Assembly: GCF_001880325.1 (NCBI RefSeq)
Contig: NZ_CP016312.1
Location: 1,178,001 to 1,242,000 of the forward strand
DNA: 64,000 nt
Direction: 5' to 3'
From: Thermus brockianus
Lineage (GTDB): Bacteria > Deinococcota > Deinococci > Deinococcales > Thermaceae
Both the position numbers and the translations under genes were made by a program. The notes beneath the pieces are model-generated. The model searched no databases. It was given only the letters and a program-made list of their open reading frames with translations, and was not told the origin of the DNA. Shown piece after piece: positions 14,520 to 22,046 of this stretch. Numbering within the stretch: position 1 is the first letter of the stretch; every line of letters begins with the position of its first letter.

Positions 14520-14580
14520 GCCCTAAAGGGTAGGAGTGGGCGGTTAGGCGGGCGTTAACCTTCGGGGCCCGGCCTTGCGG

Positions 14581-14613
14581 GGTAACCCCCGGCTAACCCC
14601 TTTGGGCCATACT
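14581..14613 (+). promoter_or_regulatory. Promoter with tandem 10-bp repeats before the response-regulator gene
   Basis: GGTAACCCCC (14581-14590) and GGCTAACCCC (14591-14600) are adjacent direct repeats in the usual -35 zone. A CATACT -10 box (14608-14613) lies six bases before the GTG start. A further GTTAACC is at 14554-14560. Ten- to eleven-base direct repeats are the normal target of OmpR/PhoB-type regulators, so autoregulation is likely. Confidence 0.5.
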
Positions 14614-14619
14614 GGGGGC

Positions 14620-15279
14620 GTGCAGGTGCTCCTCTTGGAGGACGAGCCCCACCTGGGCCGGGCGGTGGCGGGGGCCTTGGCCGCCCAGGGGTATGGGGTG
14701 CGTTGGGCCAGGGGCCTCGAGGAGGCCCGGGGGGCCTTCTTGGAACTGGAGCCCGACCTCATGGTTCTGGACGTGCGCCTGCCCGAGGACCCCGATGGGG
14801 GCTTCCGCTTTGCGGAGGAGGTGCGGGAGGCGGGCTACAAGGGGCCCATTCTCTTCCTCACCGCCCGGGATGCCTTAGGGGACCGCATCCAGGGCCTGGA
14901 TCTAGGGGGGGACGATTACCTGGTGAAGCCCTTCCACCTAGAGGAGCTCCTCGCCCGGGTGCGGGCCCTGTTGCGCCGGGTTTCCGAGGTGAAGGAAAGC
15001 CGGGTGCGCCTGGGGGGCTTGGAGGTGGACCTGGCGGGGCGGGCGGTCTTTTGGGAGGGCAGGCGGGTGGACCTATCCCTGAAGGAGTTCGCCCTTTTGG
15101 AGCTTTTCCTCCTCCATCCGAGCCGGGTCTTCTCCCCGGAGGAGGTGGCGGAGAGGGTGTTTGGGGATGGGGAAAAGGTGGGGGCGGTAAAGGTCTACGT
15201 GCACTACCTGCGGCAGAAGCTCTACCCTGGGGTGGTGCGCACCGTGCCCGGGGGGTACCGGCTTGGGGATGAGCCTTAG
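14620..15279 (+). CDS. OmpR/PhoB-family response regulator
   Basis: The 219-aa two-domain regulator has an N-terminal receiver with acidic pair ED (LLLEDEPHLG), phosphoacceptor Asp in LMVLDVRLPED, the switch Thr in LFLTARDA and Lys in LVKPFH. The C-terminal winged helix has LSLKEFALLELFLLHPSRVFS and ends VYVHYLRQKL...RTVPGGYRL. The GTG at 14620 is chosen because the receiver fold begins at once and a -10 box ends six bases upstream. It overlaps the histidine kinase gene and probably controls the efflux operon that follows. Confidence 0.94.
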   Translation: MQVLLLEDEPHLGRAVAGALAAQGYGVRWARGLEEARGAFLELEPDLMVLDVRLPEDPDGGFRFAEEVREAGYKGPILFLTARDALGDRIQGLDLGGDDYLVKPFHLEELLARVRALLRRVSEVKESRVRLGGLEVDLAGRAVFWEGRRVDLSLKEFALLELFLLHPSRVFSPEEVAERVFGDGEKVGAVKVYVHYLRQKLYPGVVRTVPGGYRLGDEP

Positions 15280-16471
15280 GACCCGGCTTGCCCTCTTCTT
15301 CGCCCTGGCCATCGGGCTTGCCCTTCTCTTCCAGGGGGCCCTGAGCTACCTGGCCTTTAAGCGCCTGGTGGAGGCGGATTTGGACCAGTCCCTCCTCTTC
15401 TACGTCCAGGCCCTGGCGGAGGGCCGGCGGCCCCCAAGGGGGGAGTTCGCCTTCCGCCTGGTGCAAGGGGAAGCCCGGCAAGCGAGCGCCAACTTCCCCG
15501 ATCTCCCCGAGCTTCCCCCAGGAGCCTACTGGCGGGAGGGTTGGCGGGTTCTGGTCCTGGAGGTCCCAGGGGGGACCCTCGCGGTGGCCCGCTACGACCC
15601 GGGGGCTGCCTTCGCCCTAAGCCGCTTCCGCCTGGCCCTTTTCGGGGTGGGGGGGCTCCTTACCCTCCTTTTCGCCCTGCTGGCGGGGGGCCTGGCGGGG
15701 GCTGCCCTGAGGCCCCTGGCCCGGCTCACGGGGGTGGCAAGGCGGGTGGCGGATTCCCAGGACCTCTCCCTGCGGGTGGTCCCCGAGGGCGGGGGGGAGC
15801 TTAAGGCTTTGGCCGAGGCCTTCAACCACATGCTGGAGCGCCTCGAGGCCTTCCTGGACCGGGAAAGGCGCTTCACCCGGGACGCCGCCCACGAGCTCAG
15901 GACCCCCGTGGCCGCCGCCCTCGCCCAGGTGGAGGCGGCGGAGAAGGGCTACCTTTCCCAAGAGGAGGTCCTCCCCGCGGTCAAGGAGGAGCTTCTCCGC
16001 ATGAAGCGCCTGGTGGAGGCCCTGCTCATCCTCGCCCGGGAAGGGCGGGTAGAGCGGGTGGGGCTGGACCTGGCCGCTCTGGCGCGGGAAGAGGCGGAGG
16101 CCTTCGGCGTGCCCTACGAGGGGCCGGAAAGCCTGCCCTACCGGGGCAACCCCCTCCTCCTCGCCCAGGCCCTGAGGAACCTCTTGCAAAACGCCCTCCT
16201 CCACGGGGAGGGGAAGGGGGTGCGGGTGGTCTTGGAGGTGGCGGGGAAGGAGGCCTTCCTGGGGGTGGTGGACCAGGGCCCGGGGATGCCGGAGGAGGCC
16301 CTGAAGGAGGCAGGCCGCCCCTTTTTTAGGGCCTCGAGGGCCCCCGGGGAGGGCCTGGGCCTTTCCGTGGCCCAAAAGGTGGCGGAGGCCCACGGGGGGA
16401 GGCTGGAACTCCTTCCCAATACCCCTTCGGGCCTCCGGGCCCGGTTGGTCCTCTCCCTAACTGCGGACTAA
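15269..16471 (+). CDS. Sensor histidine kinase
   Basis: The 400-aa kinase has two membrane helices (about 8-30 and 125-150) around a roughly 90-aa extracytoplasmic sensor, then a HAMP linker (LRPLARLTGVARRVAD), the H-box DAAHELRTPVAAAL with the phosphorylated His, the N-box NLLQNALLHG, the G1 box DQGPGMP and the G2 box GEGLGLSVAQKVAEAHGG. Start ATG 15269 overlaps the regulator gene by 11 bases. The efflux operon starts 26 bases after its stop, so the signal may be an exported or envelope-stress compound. Confidence 0.94.
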   Translation: MSLRTRLALFFALAIGLALLFQGALSYLAFKRLVEADLDQSLLFYVQALAEGRRPPRGEFAFRLVQGEARQASANFPDLPELPPGAYWREGWRVLVLEVPGGTLAVARYDPGAAFALSRFRLALFGVGGLLTLLFALLAGGLAGAALRPLARLTGVARRVADSQDLSLRVVPEGGGELKALAEAFNHMLERLEAFLDRERRFTRDAAHELRTPVAAALAQVEAAEKGYLSQEEVLPAVKEELLRMKRLVEALLILAREGRVERVGLDLAALAREEAEAFGVPYEGPESLPYRGNPLLLAQALRNLLQNALLHGEGKGVRVVLEVAGKEAFLGVVDQGPGMPEEALKEAGRPFFRASRAPGEGLGLSVAQKVAEAHGGRLELLPNTPSGLRARLVLSLTAD

Positions 16472-16497: not shown

Positions 16498-17766
16498 ATG
16501 CCAAGGATATGGAGTGTTTTCCTCCTTTTCCTTCCCGCCCTGGCCCAGGGGATGGACCTTAAGACCTGGGTGCGGGAAAGCCCAAGCTACCAAGCCCTCC
16601 TCCTGCAAAGGGCCCAGGCCGAGGCCACCTGGGAGGCCGCCCAAAAGGGCCTTGCCCCTACCCTTACGCCTCAAGGGAACTATAGCCGAAGCCTTTTGGG
16701 GCAGGAAAGCCTGGCCCTGGGCCTAGGGGGAAGCATGGCCCTGCCCTGGGGGCAGGCCCAGGATAACCTTAGGGGAGCAGAAATCACCTACAAGAAGGCC
16801 CTTTTGGACCTCCTCTCCCAGGGAAACCTCCTCTTCCAGACAGCCCTTTCCCAGTACCTGGACACCTACCTGGCTGCTTTGGACCAGGCCTTGGCGCAAA
16901 AGCGCCTGGCTTGGCGGGAGGCCCAGCTCAAGGCAGTGCGGGACCAGCGGGAGAAGGGCCAGGCCACCTTCCAGGATCTCCTGGATGCGGAGGGTAATCT
17001 GGCGGAGGCTCAGGCGGAGGCCCTGCGGGCGCAACTGGCCCTCAGCCTGGCCCAGGCCCGGCTCCAGGCCACCTTGGGTCGGGCGGTGGCGGTGGAGGCC
17101 TTGCCCCCCTTGCCCCAAGAAACCCTCTCCCTGGAAAGGGTTTTGACCTTCCTGGAGGAGCGGCCCGATGTGCAAAAGGCCAGGCTTGCCCTGGAGGAGG
17201 CGGAGGAGGCCCTGGCTCAAGCCCGGCGGGAGCGGGCATGGCCAGAGGTTTCCGTAAGCCTCACGGCCCAAGAGGGTAATGCCGCCCTAAGCCTCGGGCT
17301 TAATCTGAAGACGGGGGTTTTAAACTACGGGGCTCAGTACACCGTCCTAGGCACGGGCGGAAATGGGGGGGTGGCTTTCCAGGTGCAGGCGGGTATTCCC
17401 CTCTTAAGCCCCGTCCAGGATGCGGGAGTCGCCCTTCAGGAAAAGGCCTTGGCCCAAGCTCGCTTGGCCCTGGAAAGTGCAAGAAGGGCGGCGGAATTGG
17501 ACCTCCGCGCCAAGTACCAAGCCCTTCTCCAGGCCCAAGCCCAGGTGGAGGTTGCAGCCAAGGCCCTGGCGGGGGCGGAGAACTCCTTGGCGGTGGCGCA
17601 AAAGCGCCTCGAGGCGGGGACGGGTACCGTCCTGGAAGTTATGCAGGCCGAGGTGGGCCTCCTGCAGGCCCGCCGCACCCTGGAGGGGGCCAAGGCCGCT
17701 CTCCTCCAGGCCTACTACGCCTTATGGGATGCCATGGGGCAGGATCTCGTGGGAGGTGAACGGTGA
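16498..17766 (+). CDS. TolC-family outer membrane efflux protein
   Basis: The 422-aa protein has a signal peptide ending ALAQG and two TolC-type repeats. Each repeat has an outer-membrane strand pair (around GLAPTLTPQGNYSRS and AWPEVSVSLTAQEGN...GVAFQVQAGIPL) followed by long Ala/Leu/Gln coiled coils. It should trimerise as the outer channel for the MacA/MacB-type pump encoded downstream. Its GTGA stop overlaps the start of the second TolC-like gene. Confidence 0.88.
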   Translation: MPRIWSVFLLFLPALAQGMDLKTWVRESPSYQALLLQRAQAEATWEAAQKGLAPTLTPQGNYSRSLLGQESLALGLGGSMALPWGQAQDNLRGAEITYKKALLDLLSQGNLLFQTALSQYLDTYLAALDQALAQKRLAWREAQLKAVRDQREKGQATFQDLLDAEGNLAEAQAEALRAQLALSLAQARLQATLGRAVAVEALPPLPQETLSLERVLTFLEERPDVQKARLALEEAEEALAQARRERAWPEVSVSLTAQEGNAALSLGLNLKTGVLNYGAQYTVLGTGGNGGVAFQVQAGIPLLSPVQDAGVALQEKALAQARLALESARRAAELDLRAKYQALLQAQAQVEVAAKALAGAENSLAVAQKRLEAGTGTVLEVMQAEVGLLQARRTLEGAKAALLQAYYALWDAMGQDLVGGER

Positions 17767-18797
17767 GGCGAACCCTAGCGTTTCTTTTTACGGCAACCTT
17801 GGCCCTTGCCCAAGGGAACCTGAGCTTCCAAGAGGCCTTACAGCAAGCCCTGAAGCAAAACCCCTCGTACCAGAACGCCCTCTTGGCCCGGGAAAGCGCC
17901 TTAACAGAACTCAAGGCCCTGGAGGCGGACCCGAGCACCCTGGTTCTTCCCCTTACCCAGGCCCGGCAAGCCCTGGTCCTAGCGGAAGCGCAGGTGGGGG
18001 CAAGCCGCCTGAGCCTCCTGCAAAGCTTCCTTTCGGCCTACACCGCCCTTCTGGAGGCCCAGGCCAACGAGGGGGTGCTCCAAGCCAACCGCGCCTTGGC
18101 CGAGCGTAACCTGCAGATTGCCCGGGCCCGCCGCCAAGCGGGCAACGCCACCGAACTGGACGTGGCCAAAGCGGAAACCGCCTTGAGGTCGGCGGAAATC
18201 GCCCTGAAGAACGCCGAGGCCCAGGGCCCTGCCCTCCTTAAGGCCCTAGAGGCAGCCTTGGGATCTTCCTTGCCGAGGGAGCCGCAGCTTGCCCCCCTGC
18301 CCCAGCCCAAGGCCCTAGGGGTGGACCTGGCCGCTTTGCGGGAGGGGCTTGAGGAAAGGCTTCCGAGTCTGGTCCAGGCTCGGCAGGCCCTGGAACTGGC
18401 TGAGCTCCAGGTGCGCCTTTCCGACAACGACTATACCCCCCGCCTCACCCTGGAAAAGGCCAAGGCCAGCCGGGATAACGCCCAAAAAGCTTTGGAGAAC
18501 GCCAGAGCTCAAGCGCTTTCCGCCCTGGAAGCAGCCTATGCCCAGGCCCAAGCCGCTTGGGGCCAGGTGCTCACCGCCCGGGAAAACCTCGCCAACCAGG
18601 AGAGGACCCTGGAGGTGGCCCGCAAGGCATTCCAGGCTGGGACCATCAGCCGCGTGGAGTTGGAGCAGGAGGAGGTGAATCTGGCCCAGGCCCGCTACAA
18701 CCTGTTGGTGGCCCAAAACGCCTACTGGAAGGCTTTGGCCGCCTTAAGCGTGGCGGCAGGGCAGGATCTTACCGGGCTTTTGGAGGTGGGACCATGA
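17763..18797 (+). CDS. Short TolC-like protein lacking the beta-barrel segments
   Basis: The 344-aa product has a signal peptide (FLFTATLALAQG) and TolC-type coiled coils in two repeats, but is about 80 residues shorter than its neighbour. The places where the strands should insert are only LEADPSTLVLPL in repeat one and SDNDYTPRLTLEKA in repeat two, too short to cross the outer membrane twice. It seems to be a periplasmic helical tube or adaptor related to TolC. A GGAGGTGA precedes its GTG start, and its stop overlaps the membrane-fusion gene. Confidence 0.82.
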   Translation: MRRTLAFLFTATLALAQGNLSFQEALQQALKQNPSYQNALLARESALTELKALEADPSTLVLPLTQARQALVLAEAQVGASRLSLLQSFLSAYTALLEAQANEGVLQANRALAERNLQIARARRQAGNATELDVAKAETALRSAEIALKNAEAQGPALLKALEAALGSSLPREPQLAPLPQPKALGVDLAALREGLEERLPSLVQARQALELAELQVRLSDNDYTPRLTLEKAKASRDNAQKALENARAQALSALEAAYAQAQAAWGQVLTARENLANQERTLEVARKAFQAGTISRVELEQEEVNLAQARYNLLVAQNAYWKALAALSVAAGQDLTGLLEVGP

Positions 18798-20083
18798 GGC
18801 GTTGGTTTCTCCTTCTAGTCCTCCTCGGACTTGGGGTAGGGGGCTACTTTCTCTTGCGCCCCAAGCGGGTGGCCCAGGTAGTGGAGGCCCCCGAGGTCTA
18901 CACCGTGGTCCGGGGGGAGGTGCGGGTGACGGTTTCGGGTTCGGGGAGTCTCGCCCCTTGGCAAACCTTGGACGTGCGCCCCGAGGTGCAGGGCCTCCTT
19001 CGTTCCGTGGTGGAGGAAGGTACCTGGGTGGAGAAGGGCCAGGTCCTGGCTGAGCTGGATCCCACTTCTTTCCGGCAGGCCCTGGAGGAGGCCCAGGCCG
19101 ATCTGGCCAAGGCCGAGGCCGCTCTTGCCAACACTCGGGCGCAAGGGGAAAGTGCCCTTGCTTCCCTCAAGGCTTCCCTGAAGAGCGCCGAGGTGGCCTA
19201 CGCCAACGCCCAGGCGAGCCTGTCCACCGCCCAGAGGAACCTGGAGGCTACCCGTCTCCTCTACCAGGCCGGAGGCGCAAGCCAACAGGCCCTTCTGGAA
19301 GCGGAGGCGGCCTATGCAAGCGCCAGGCGTTCCCTGGAAAACGCCGAGGTGAGCGTCAGGGCACAGCAGGAAGCCTTGGCCCTGCGGGAAGCCCAGCTGC
19401 GGGAGGACCTCCGCATCCAGGAGGCGGCCTTAGTCCAGGCGCGCTTGGCCGTGGCGGAAGCCCAAAGCAATCTGAACAGGACCCGTGTGCGGGCACCCTT
19501 TAGCGGGGTGGTCCTCTCCGTGGCGGCAAGTCCGGGGGTCCAGGTGGGACCCACCTCTACCCTCCTCACGTTGGGCGATTCTTCGCGCTACCGCTTGGTT
19601 CTGGAAGTGGATGAAACGGAGATCGCCCAGGTCAAGGTAGGTCTTCCGGTGAGGGTGAGCCTCGAGGGTCTCCCAGGTCAGACGTTCCAAGGGAGGGTGG
19701 AAGCCATTAGCCCCCAAGGGGAAACGGTGAACAACATCCCCGTTTTTAAGGTTGCTGTAAGCCTTGCTCCGGATCCCCGCTTCCGCTCGGGGATGAGCGC
19801 TGATGGGGAGATCGTGGTGCGGGAGGCTAAGGACGTCTTGGTCATTCCCAAACGGGCAGTGGAACGGGGGCAGGGTGGGGCCTATGTCACCCGTCTCCTT
19901 CCCGATGGCTCTACCGAAAGGGTGCCCGTGACTTTGGGTCTTGAGGACAACACCCGGGTTGCGGTCCTCGAGGGACTAAAGGAAGGGGACCAGGTGATCC
20001 TCTCCAGGAGAGGGGCTACGGGTTCCAATAGCCAGCAGCAACGGCCTCCGGAGCCATTGCCCCTTATGGGGCCTGGGAGGTAG
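18794..20083 (+). CDS. macA: MacA-type membrane fusion protein (RND/HlyD family)
   Basis: The 429-aa adaptor has one N-terminal helix (FLLLVLLGLGVGGYFLL), a lipoyl-type half-motif (RPEVQGLLRSVVEEGTWVEKGQVLAELD), an extended coiled-coil hairpin (about 75-215), the second lipoyl half (RTRVRAPFSGVVLSVAASPG) and C-terminal beta-barrel and membrane-proximal domains. It should bridge the MacB-type ABC pump to the TolC channel. The ATG is chosen because it overlaps the preceding TGA and starts directly at the membrane helix. Confidence 0.92.
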   Translation: MRRWFLLLVLLGLGVGGYFLLRPKRVAQVVEAPEVYTVVRGEVRVTVSGSGSLAPWQTLDVRPEVQGLLRSVVEEGTWVEKGQVLAELDPTSFRQALEEAQADLAKAEAALANTRAQGESALASLKASLKSAEVAYANAQASLSTAQRNLEATRLLYQAGGASQQALLEAEAAYASARRSLENAEVSVRAQQEALALREAQLREDLRIQEAALVQARLAVAEAQSNLNRTRVRAPFSGVVLSVAASPGVQVGPTSTLLTLGDSSRYRLVLEVDETEIAQVKVGLPVRVSLEGLPGQTFQGRVEAISPQGETVNNIPVFKVAVSLAPDPRFRSGMSADGEIVVREAKDVLVIPKRAVERGQGGAYVTRLLPDGSTERVPVTLGLEDNTRVAVLEGLKEGDQVILSRRGATGSNSQQQRPPEPLPLMGPGR

Positions 20084-20085
20084 GC

Positions 20086-20763
20086 GTGCTTCTGGAGCTT
20101 AGGGCGGTGAGGAAGGTTTACCAGATGGGGGAGGAAGTTTTCCCCGCTCTTAAGGGGGTGGACTTGCAAGTGGAGGCTGGGGAGATGCTCGCCATCATGG
20201 GGCCTTCGGGGAGCGGCAAGAGCACCCTCCTCCACATCTTGGGCCTCCTGGACCGGCCCACCGAGGGAGAGTACCGCCTCCTAGGTAAGCCTACCCAAAA
20301 CCTTTCCGAAGGGGAGCGAGCCTACCTGCGCAATCGTTTTTTAGGTTTTGTCTTTCAGGCTTTTTTCCTACTCCCCCGGCTTACTGCTTTGGAGAACGTA
20401 GAGGTACCCTTGACCTACGCTGGCTTCTCTCCTAAGGAGAGGAGACGTAGGGCTTTGGAACTTCTAGAGCGGGTGGGACTTTTGGAAAAAGCCCACAACT
20501 TTCCCAACCAGCTCTCCGGTGGGCAACGGCAGCGGGTAGCCATCGCCCGGGCCCTAGCCCTCAAGCCCCCCCTTCTCCTTGCCGACGAGCCCACGGGGGC
20601 GTTGGACACCAAGACGGGGGAGGAGATCCTTGTCCTTTTTCAGGAGCTAAACCGGGAGGGTACCACGGTTATCGTGGTCACCCACGAGCCTTCGGTGGCG
20701 GAGAAGACAACGAGGGTGATCCGGGTACGAGATGGCGAGATCGTGGCGGACGAGAGGAGGTGA
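20086..20763 (+). CDS. macB: MacB-type ABC transporter ATP-binding protein
   Basis: The 225-aa ATPase starts with GTG two bases after the macA stop. It has Walker [11 protein letters not shown]-loop FVFQAFFLL, signature [15 protein letters not shown], Walker [16 protein letters not shown] and switch His VVTHEPS. The ATPase and permease of this pump are separate genes, rather than fused as in Enterobacteria. It probably drives efflux through the adjacent MacA- and TolC-like proteins. Confidence 0.93.
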
Positions 20764-20766
20764 GGA

Positions 20767-22046
20767 ATGAGGCGGGATGATCCCCAGGAGGTGGTTGCAG
20801 GCCGGGTAGGACTTTCCCTTTCGGAGATGGCCCGTGTGGCGTGGCGGGCTATCGCTGCCAATCCCCTGCGCTCTGCCCTTACCGCCTTGGGAGTGGTGAT
20901 CGGGGTGGCAGCAGTGGTGGCCCTTACCATGGTGGGCCAGGGGACCACCCAGCGGGTTACCCGCTTGCTAGAGGGTCTGGGCACCAACCTCCTCACCGTA
21001 GGTCCTGCCCAAGGGGGAAGGGGGCCAGGGGGAGGCTTGGTGCGTGGGGGCGGACCTGCTACCCTCCCCCTTGCCGACGCCTACGCCATTCAGGAGGCCT
21101 TTGCCGGGGAGGTGGTGGGGGTGGCCCCTGTGGCCCAGGCCAACTTCCAGCTAAAGTACGGGGCCCAAAACCTCCGGGCCACGGTGGTGGGTACCTGGCC
21201 CGACTTTGCCCAAGTCCGCAACGCAGAGCCTGACAGGGGTGGCTTCTTCACTTGGGAAGACGTGGAGGCCCGGCGACGGGTGGCGGTGATCGGTTACGGC
21301 ATCGCCCAGGACCTTTTCGGCGGAGAGGATCCTTTAGGCCAGCGCCTGCGCATTGCCGGCATTCCCTTCACCGTGGTGGGGGTGTTGCCAGATAAGGGCG
21401 ACCAAGGCTTCGTAAGTACCAATTACCAGGTCTATGTCCCCCTTTCCACCTATCTGCAGCGCCTTTCCCGTCCGGAGGCGGGGGGGCTAAGGTGAACACC
21501 ATCTACCTCCAAGGTGCTGACCGCGACCGCCTTAAGGACCTTCAGGAGCACCTTACCCAGTTCCTGGCGCAGCGGCATGGCCTATGGGATCCCCAAAGCT
21601 ACGATTTCTCCGTCACCAACCAGCAAGATGCTTTGGAGAGTGTGAACCAAACTACCAGGGCCATGACCCTTTTCCTAGGAGGGGTGGCAGGCATCAGCCT
21701 CCTGGTGGGGGGCATCGGCATCATGAACATCATGCTGGTTTCCGTTACCGAGCGGACCCGGGAGATCGGAGTACGCAAGGCCCTGGGGGCAAGGCCTCAG
21801 GACATTCTGGGTCAGTTTTTGGCGGAGTCTGTGGTTTTAAGCGTGGGTGGGGGGCTTTTAGGTGTGGCCGTGGGCCTTTTAATGGCTCGGTTTGTGGGCC
21901 AAGCTATCTCGGTAACCCCCGTCTTTTCCCCTACAAGCATCGTTGTTGCCTTCTTTTTTGCCGTGGTGGTGGGGGTCTTCTTTGGGCTTTATCCCGCTTG
22001 GCGGGCAGCCAGGTTGGATCCCGTGGAGGCCCTTCGGTATGAGTAA
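20767..22046 (+). CDS. macB: MacB-type ABC transporter permease, interrupted by a -1 frameshift
   Basis: Two frames (20767-21495 and about 21486-22046) join into a 426-aa MacB permease. The N-terminal helix reads [20 protein letters not shown], a periplasmic domain follows, and three C-terminal helices include the conserved [20 protein letters not shown] loop. The break is at the G run 21480-21486; one extra G turns the false ending EAGGLR into [14 protein letters not shown]. The gene closes the efflux operon of response regulator, kinase, two TolC-like genes, macA and ATPase. Confidence 0.9.

Follow-up and report, generated by a model that had tools for sequence, protein, structure and literature searches.

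Tripartite efflux pumps are described as a transporter, an adaptor and one outer-membrane factor. The region studied here, a stretch of 64,000 nt from Thermus brockianus (the window), carries two adjacent TolC-type genes in front of genes for a MacA-MacB-type pump, and the product of the second had been described in a first-pass annotation as a TolC-like protein missing its outer-membrane strands. This raises the question of what a TolC-type protein without a membrane barrel contributes to a pump that has a complete TolC-type protein encoded next door. The public records examined label both genes simply 'TolC family protein'.

Gene order of the locus

The features of the locus, with coordinates in the window, are:

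14575..15279, + strand, response regulator of the OmpR type (Pfam Response_reg, Trans_reg_C)
15263..16471, + strand, histidine kinase (Pfam HAMP, HisKA, HATPase_c)
16498..17766, + strand, full TolC-type OEP, the barrel-bearing partner (Pfam OEP E 1e-39; AlphaFold2 pLDDT 94.6)
17763..18797, + strand, barrel-less TolC-type OEP (GTG start, 344 aa; Pfam, AlphaFold2, VIA-align)
17763..17813, + strand, signal-peptide-like segment, residues 1–17 of the barrel-less OEP (from the sequence, by eye)
17928..17942, + strand, upper turn 1 (D56 PSTL), which replaces the first strand hairpin, with conserved D and P
18141..18164, + strand, lower tip 1 (GNATELDV), a TolC-type adaptor-docking tip motif
18423..18440, + strand, upper turn 2 (DNDYTP), which replaces the second strand hairpin; top-conserved stretch
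18639..18650, + strand, lower tip 2 (GTIS) of the barrel-less OEP
18794..20083, + strand, MacA-like periplasmic adaptor (HlyD_D23, HlyD_3, RND_mfp)
20086..20763, + strand, MacB-type ATPase (ABC_tran)
20767..22046, + strand, MacB-type permease (MacB_PCD, FtsX) in two ORFs, 20767–21495 and 21492–22046

The Pfam domains bore out the earlier reading of two TolC-type genes preceding a macA-macB-type pump. At the junction of the full and barrel-less OEP genes, stop and start codons overlap in GTGA, and at the junction of the barrel-less OEP and adaptor genes they overlap in ATGA, which suggests coupled translation of both OEPs and the adaptor. The locus co-encodes MacA, MacB and a TolC-type OEP, the gene set of MacAB-TolC, with an extra barrel-less OEP. 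Judged by sequence, the pump is MacAB-like and not MacAB proper, since the NCBIfam scores fall below the MacA and MacB equivalog cut-offs. The permease gene is split at 21470–21500 by a one-base frameshift beside a run of seven G; the MacB-type permease is a single intact ORF in four relatives, and the split may stem from a faulty assembly, from recent damage to the gene or from coupled reading. The BamA family is present in the genome.

Fold and domain content

The sole Pfam domain in the barrel-less protein was OEP (PF02321; E 5e-25, in two stretches), with the strongest stretch covering model positions 85–186, the helix-turn-helix that follows the strands. An AlphaFold2 (AF2) model of the mature protein as a single chain, based on an alignment with 38 relatives, was all-helical (pLDDT 96.5, pTM 0.90), with helices at residues 17–38, 44–108 and 114–149 (mature numbering) in repeat 1 and at 184–203, 210–274 and 280–315 in repeat 2, and without strands at the barrel positions. 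The AF2 model of the full OEP (pLDDT 94.6) has helices of nearly equal length, with strands at residues 38–47 and 53–64 in repeat 1 and at 233–242, 245–252, 257–267 and 274–282 in repeat 2. The strand hairpins are replaced in the barrel-less protein by turns of 5 and 6 residues, as opposed to 35 and 57 residues in the full OEP; the 12–14 residues previously counted at the strand sites are correct within the definition of helix ends. VIA-align superposed 319 of 327 residues of the barrel-less model on TolC (9tg4, Z 26), across 9tg4 residues 1–414, and the strong Foldseek matches of the model were TolC-family structures only (E 9e-11).

AF2, Pfam and VIA-align therefore agree with the first-pass annotation that the helical hairpins of both repeats are kept and the membrane strands are missing, and the all-helical model rules out a complete barrel formed by cryptic strands. 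Export had also been proposed, and the N-terminus MRRTLAFLFTATLALAQ is signal-peptide-like and lacks a lipobox Cys, as judged by eye. The suggestion of an adaptor role did not hold, as Pfam detected no HlyD or lipoyl/barrel-sandwich domain in the protein, and a separate adaptor gene follows it. Features of outer-membrane factors found here are the duplicated OEP domain, the TolC helical fold and encoding together with an adaptor and an inner-membrane pump; the membrane strands within the repeats are absent. On these models, the protein is a TolC paralogue with the whole helical tube, minus the barrel.

The full OEP has six predicted strands per chain (2 + 4) versus four in TolC, and its trimer would have 18 strands if every strand enters the barrel. 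Full partners from other phyla look similar by eye.

Conservation and selection

Barrel-less relatives across Thermus share 48–85% identity, and the turns standing in for the strands are near gap-free in all intact relatives. In close Thermus pairs, dN/dS was approximately 0.16, 0.23, 0.08 and 0.18 for the barrel-less OEP, and 0.29, 0.28, 0.18 and 0.22 for the full OEP. These sequence comparisons indicate that the barrel-less OEP is under purifying selection and hence neither an artefact nor a product of decay. With the conserved turns, the ratios rule out an artefact, a sequencing error or a pseudogene, and so uphold the earlier statement that no sequencing error accounts for the short form.

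Upper turn 2 is the top-conserved stretch of the protein, in the 98–99th percentile of 13-residue windows in both the MacB-linked and the RND-linked subfamilies. As this conservation lies where TolC would enter the membrane, that end of the protein probably has a function of its own, although the conservation of the upper turns could reflect helix capping alone. The motifs DP[ST]TL...LTQA and N[DE]YTP are common to Deinococcota, Dictyoglomota and one further small phylum, and NDYTP is also found in Limnochordia, where the first turn differs. At the opposite end, both lower tips retain the motif of TolC. Lower tip 1 of the Deinococcota barrel-less proteins has Gly in 46/50 and Ser/Thr in 49/50 rows, compared with just 27/48 for each in the full proteins, with many rows in both sets coming from close relatives. 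Lower tip 2 is retained by the full OEPs.

Distribution in Deinococcota and other phyla

Short and full classes were assigned by profile scores and checked by insert lengths. Barrel-less OEP matches were found in 26/27 Thermus genomes, each match examined lying between a full OEP, which it follows directly, and an adaptor, in three types of operon (MacB-linked, RND-linked and a second RND type). T. brockianus itself has a second set, consisting of a full OEP, a barrel-less OEP (321 aa), an RND adaptor and an RND pump (L009 3627–10337), and this RND-linked set is present in nearly all Thermus genomes. Gene splits were seen in T. parvatiensis RL (L133 6483–7506), where the barrel-less gene is in two ORFs, and in another Thermus locus (L019), where the full OEP gene is affected.

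The barrel-less profile matched 87 of 111 Deinococcota genomes (E ≤ 1e-20). A full OEP adjoins the barrel-less one in 20/20 loci from five families of Deinococcota, nearly all with adaptor and pump, and the whole OEP inventory of nine Deinococcota genomes with matches contained about 15 pairs, plus two OEPs without a partner. Full-type OEPs that stand alone and belong to a separate subfamily lie at L137 6255–7550 (− strand) and L138 5872–7203 (+ strand) in genomes G058 and G060; the profiles used detected neither an adaptor nor a pump gene in their vicinity, and proteins resembling them are paired in L098 and L099. Outside Deinococcota, the pair was found in Dictyoglomota, another small phylum (barrel-less protein in 3/3 genomes), one further lineage and Bacillota. 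The matches across Deinococcota, Dictyoglomota and Bacillota rule out an oddity of Thermus only.

The phylogeny of short homologues proposed in the first-pass annotation gave a divided answer. Short proteins from Deinococcota and Dictyoglomota fall into a single clade (91/87), and the full partners of both phyla into a second (93/84); these parallel clades indicate that the pairing is old compared with the separation of these operons into MacB and RND types. In Limnochordia, short and full proteins cluster together (98/92), as they do in genome G136 (99/95). Monophyly of all short proteins gave an AU p of 0.05, or 0.18 without G136; the NDYTP motif shared with the Limnochordia short proteins speaks for their homology. 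The G136 pair (L097 4170–6708) is in short-then-full order with different turn sequences. From the sequences, barrel loss in G136 may have been independent.

Pairing and the outer membrane in Bacillota

Bacillota genomes with a barrel-less OEP match numbered 197 of 398. We took 60 loci from 60 of these genomes and searched each genome for BamA (PF01103), using BamA as an outer-membrane marker and its absence as a proxy for the absence of an outer membrane. In the first classification, BamA-positive genomes had 29 paired and 3 unpaired loci and BamA-negative genomes 1 paired and 27 unpaired (Fisher p 2e-12, descriptive only, since the 60 genomes are related by descent and represent fewer than 60 independent events). 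The three BamA-positive exceptions each have a second OEP of 448–454 aa; two of these have 26–42 extra residues at both strand sites and in the third (L207) inspection by eye shows segments that resemble strands, and they were therefore counted as divergent full OEPs. After this reassignment, which followed sight of the first table, 32/32 BamA-positive Bacillota are paired. Among the BamA-negative genomes, 27/28 have the barrel-less protein alone, mostly beside an adaptor and a pump, and in the one paired genome (G569) the PF01103 search did not find BamA. No OEP match covering the strand part was found in eight BamA-negative Bacillota genomes surveyed whole, versus 7/7 BamA-positive genomes with such matches.

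In unpaired barrel-less OEPs of BamA-negative genomes (L175, L177, L180, L181, L182 and L184), the first turn is typically about 20 residues longer, and the second is often YTPN[VT][FY].Y[RK]E. These differing turns suggest that the upper end may have another partner there.

Possible roles of the barrel-less protein

We propose, with a probability of about one half, that the barrel-less OEP is a wall- or periplasm-spanning helical section in a four-component pump whose parts act in series. Three copies would form a 12-helix tube of about 10 nm (65 residues × 0.15 nm), with its lower tips docking on the adaptor hexamer in the manner of TolC. At the upper end of the tube, each chain would contribute two helix turns (DP.TL and NDYTP), and the six turns together would contact the full TolC trimer at its periplasmic tips. 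The full TolC would in turn cross the outer membrane. The order would thus be transporter, adaptor, wall-spanning barrel-less tube and outer-membrane TolC, and in cells without an outer membrane the first three would suffice. The presence of the barrel-less protein alone in BamA-negative genomes, together with its better-kept tip motif, favours such a self-sufficient tube. A counterpoint is that the full OEPs, which have lower tip 2, could bind the adaptor themselves.

For comparison with this length, TolC is 14 nm long (PMC8277102), the periplasm of D. radiodurans measures 121 nm (PMC9388160), and Thermus has a 'wide periplasm' (PMC4463427). The wide periplasm of these lineages agrees with a need for added length, but a section of about 10 nm is by itself too short for a 121-nm periplasm, which leaves room for stacking or for local approach of the membranes. 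Head-to-tail stacking of barrel-less trimers, upper turns onto lower tips, would give a tube of variable length from the adaptor to the outer-membrane TolC; we consider this extension a long shot. If true, ABC and RND pumps could in this way span the thick walls of monoderms and, in Deinococcota, a very wide envelope.

The first-pass annotation had left the choice between a mixed TolC and a periplasmic spacer, and the comparative evidence now favours the tube in series. The mixed ring is nonetheless the alternative to be taken most seriously, and we hold it to be possible if somewhat unlikely: short and full chains, for instance three of each, would stand side by side in a larger helical barrel, with the strands of the membrane barrel coming from the full chains only. 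The adjacent, translationally overlapping genes would suit such a ring, six strands per full chain instead of four could suit its greater width, and the equal helix lengths of the two proteins agree with it, although homology alone also yields equal lengths. The persistence of the short protein without any full OEP in BamA-negative genomes shows the full chain to be dispensable there. This speaks against a short protein whose sole purpose is to complete a mixed ring, although in diderms such a ring may still form. The same genomes lend something to another arrangement, that of two separate complexes with alternative exits, in which adaptor and pump would release either to the outside through the full TolC or into the wall or periplasm through the short tube. 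A short tube on its own must release into the wall in those cells, and both OEPs carry TolC-type tips; yet strict co-occurrence and gene overlap in diderms suggest joint use, and periplasmic release has no evident purpose, so that we think this arrangement improbable.

That the short protein is instead an assembly factor, serving the full OEP as chaperone or tether in its assembly or in its binding of peptidoglycan, would explain why there is mostly one short gene per full gene. We find this still harder to credit, given a complete TolC helical fold with adaptor-type tips and the retention of the short protein with adaptor and pump where the full OEP is absent. An artefact or a decaying TolC duplicate could draw on the frameshifts that some Thermus assemblies show in one gene of the pair (the short one in T. 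parvatiensis, the full one in L019), but both hairpins are removed precisely, the turns are conserved and near gap-free across phyla, and dN/dS is lower in the short protein than in its full partner, which leaves this explanation with hardly any probability.

Comparison with known systems

Barrel-bearing/barrel-less pairs account for nearly all OEPs surveyed in Deinococcota and for those of Dictyoglomota and diderm Bacillota, in ABC as well as RND pumps. Where BamA is missing, so is the barrel-bearing member, which suggests a molecular trace of outer-membrane loss, with the cap lost and the tube kept. The pairs make the crossing of unusually wide or thick envelopes by pumps testable. A search of the open-access literature, with most subscription journals lying outside it, returned no description of a barrel-less/full OEP pair.

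The closest precedent is the report of TolC-like proteins in pump operons of monoderm Firmicutes (Stubenrauch et al. 2022, PLoS Biol; PMC8809574), in which an omission in the beta-barrel domain of the C. difficile protein was noted. These proteins resemble the window protein as barrel-omitted OEPs in a pump operon, and the unpaired barrel-less proteins of Bacillota fit that report. They differ in being single, in cells without an outer membrane and with a proposed location in the S-layer (PMC8809574); the window protein, from a genome with BamA, has a barrel-bearing OEP as its partner. Barrel omission in a monoderm Firmicute has thus been known since 2022, and, within the open-access literature searched, the paired system appears to be new.

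The SlpA/OmpM connectors of Deinococcota likewise answer a wide envelope with a helical structure in the periplasm but are unrelated, being single chains of coiled coil plus barrel that act as a tether and not as an efflux conduit (PMC9388160).

With TolC and other outer-membrane factors (E. coli TolC, OprM, CusC), the window protein has in common the whole helical domain, the duplicated repeat and the tip motifs; lacking the membrane strands, it cannot cross the outer membrane alone. The operon shares with the MacA-MacB-TolC pump an adaptor, an ATPase, a permease and a TolC-type OEP, and differs from it by the extra barrel-less OEP, while the second set in the genome is linked to an RND pump. 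The window protein is a homologue of the outer-membrane factors that lacks their defining barrel and belongs to what is probably a four-component pump.
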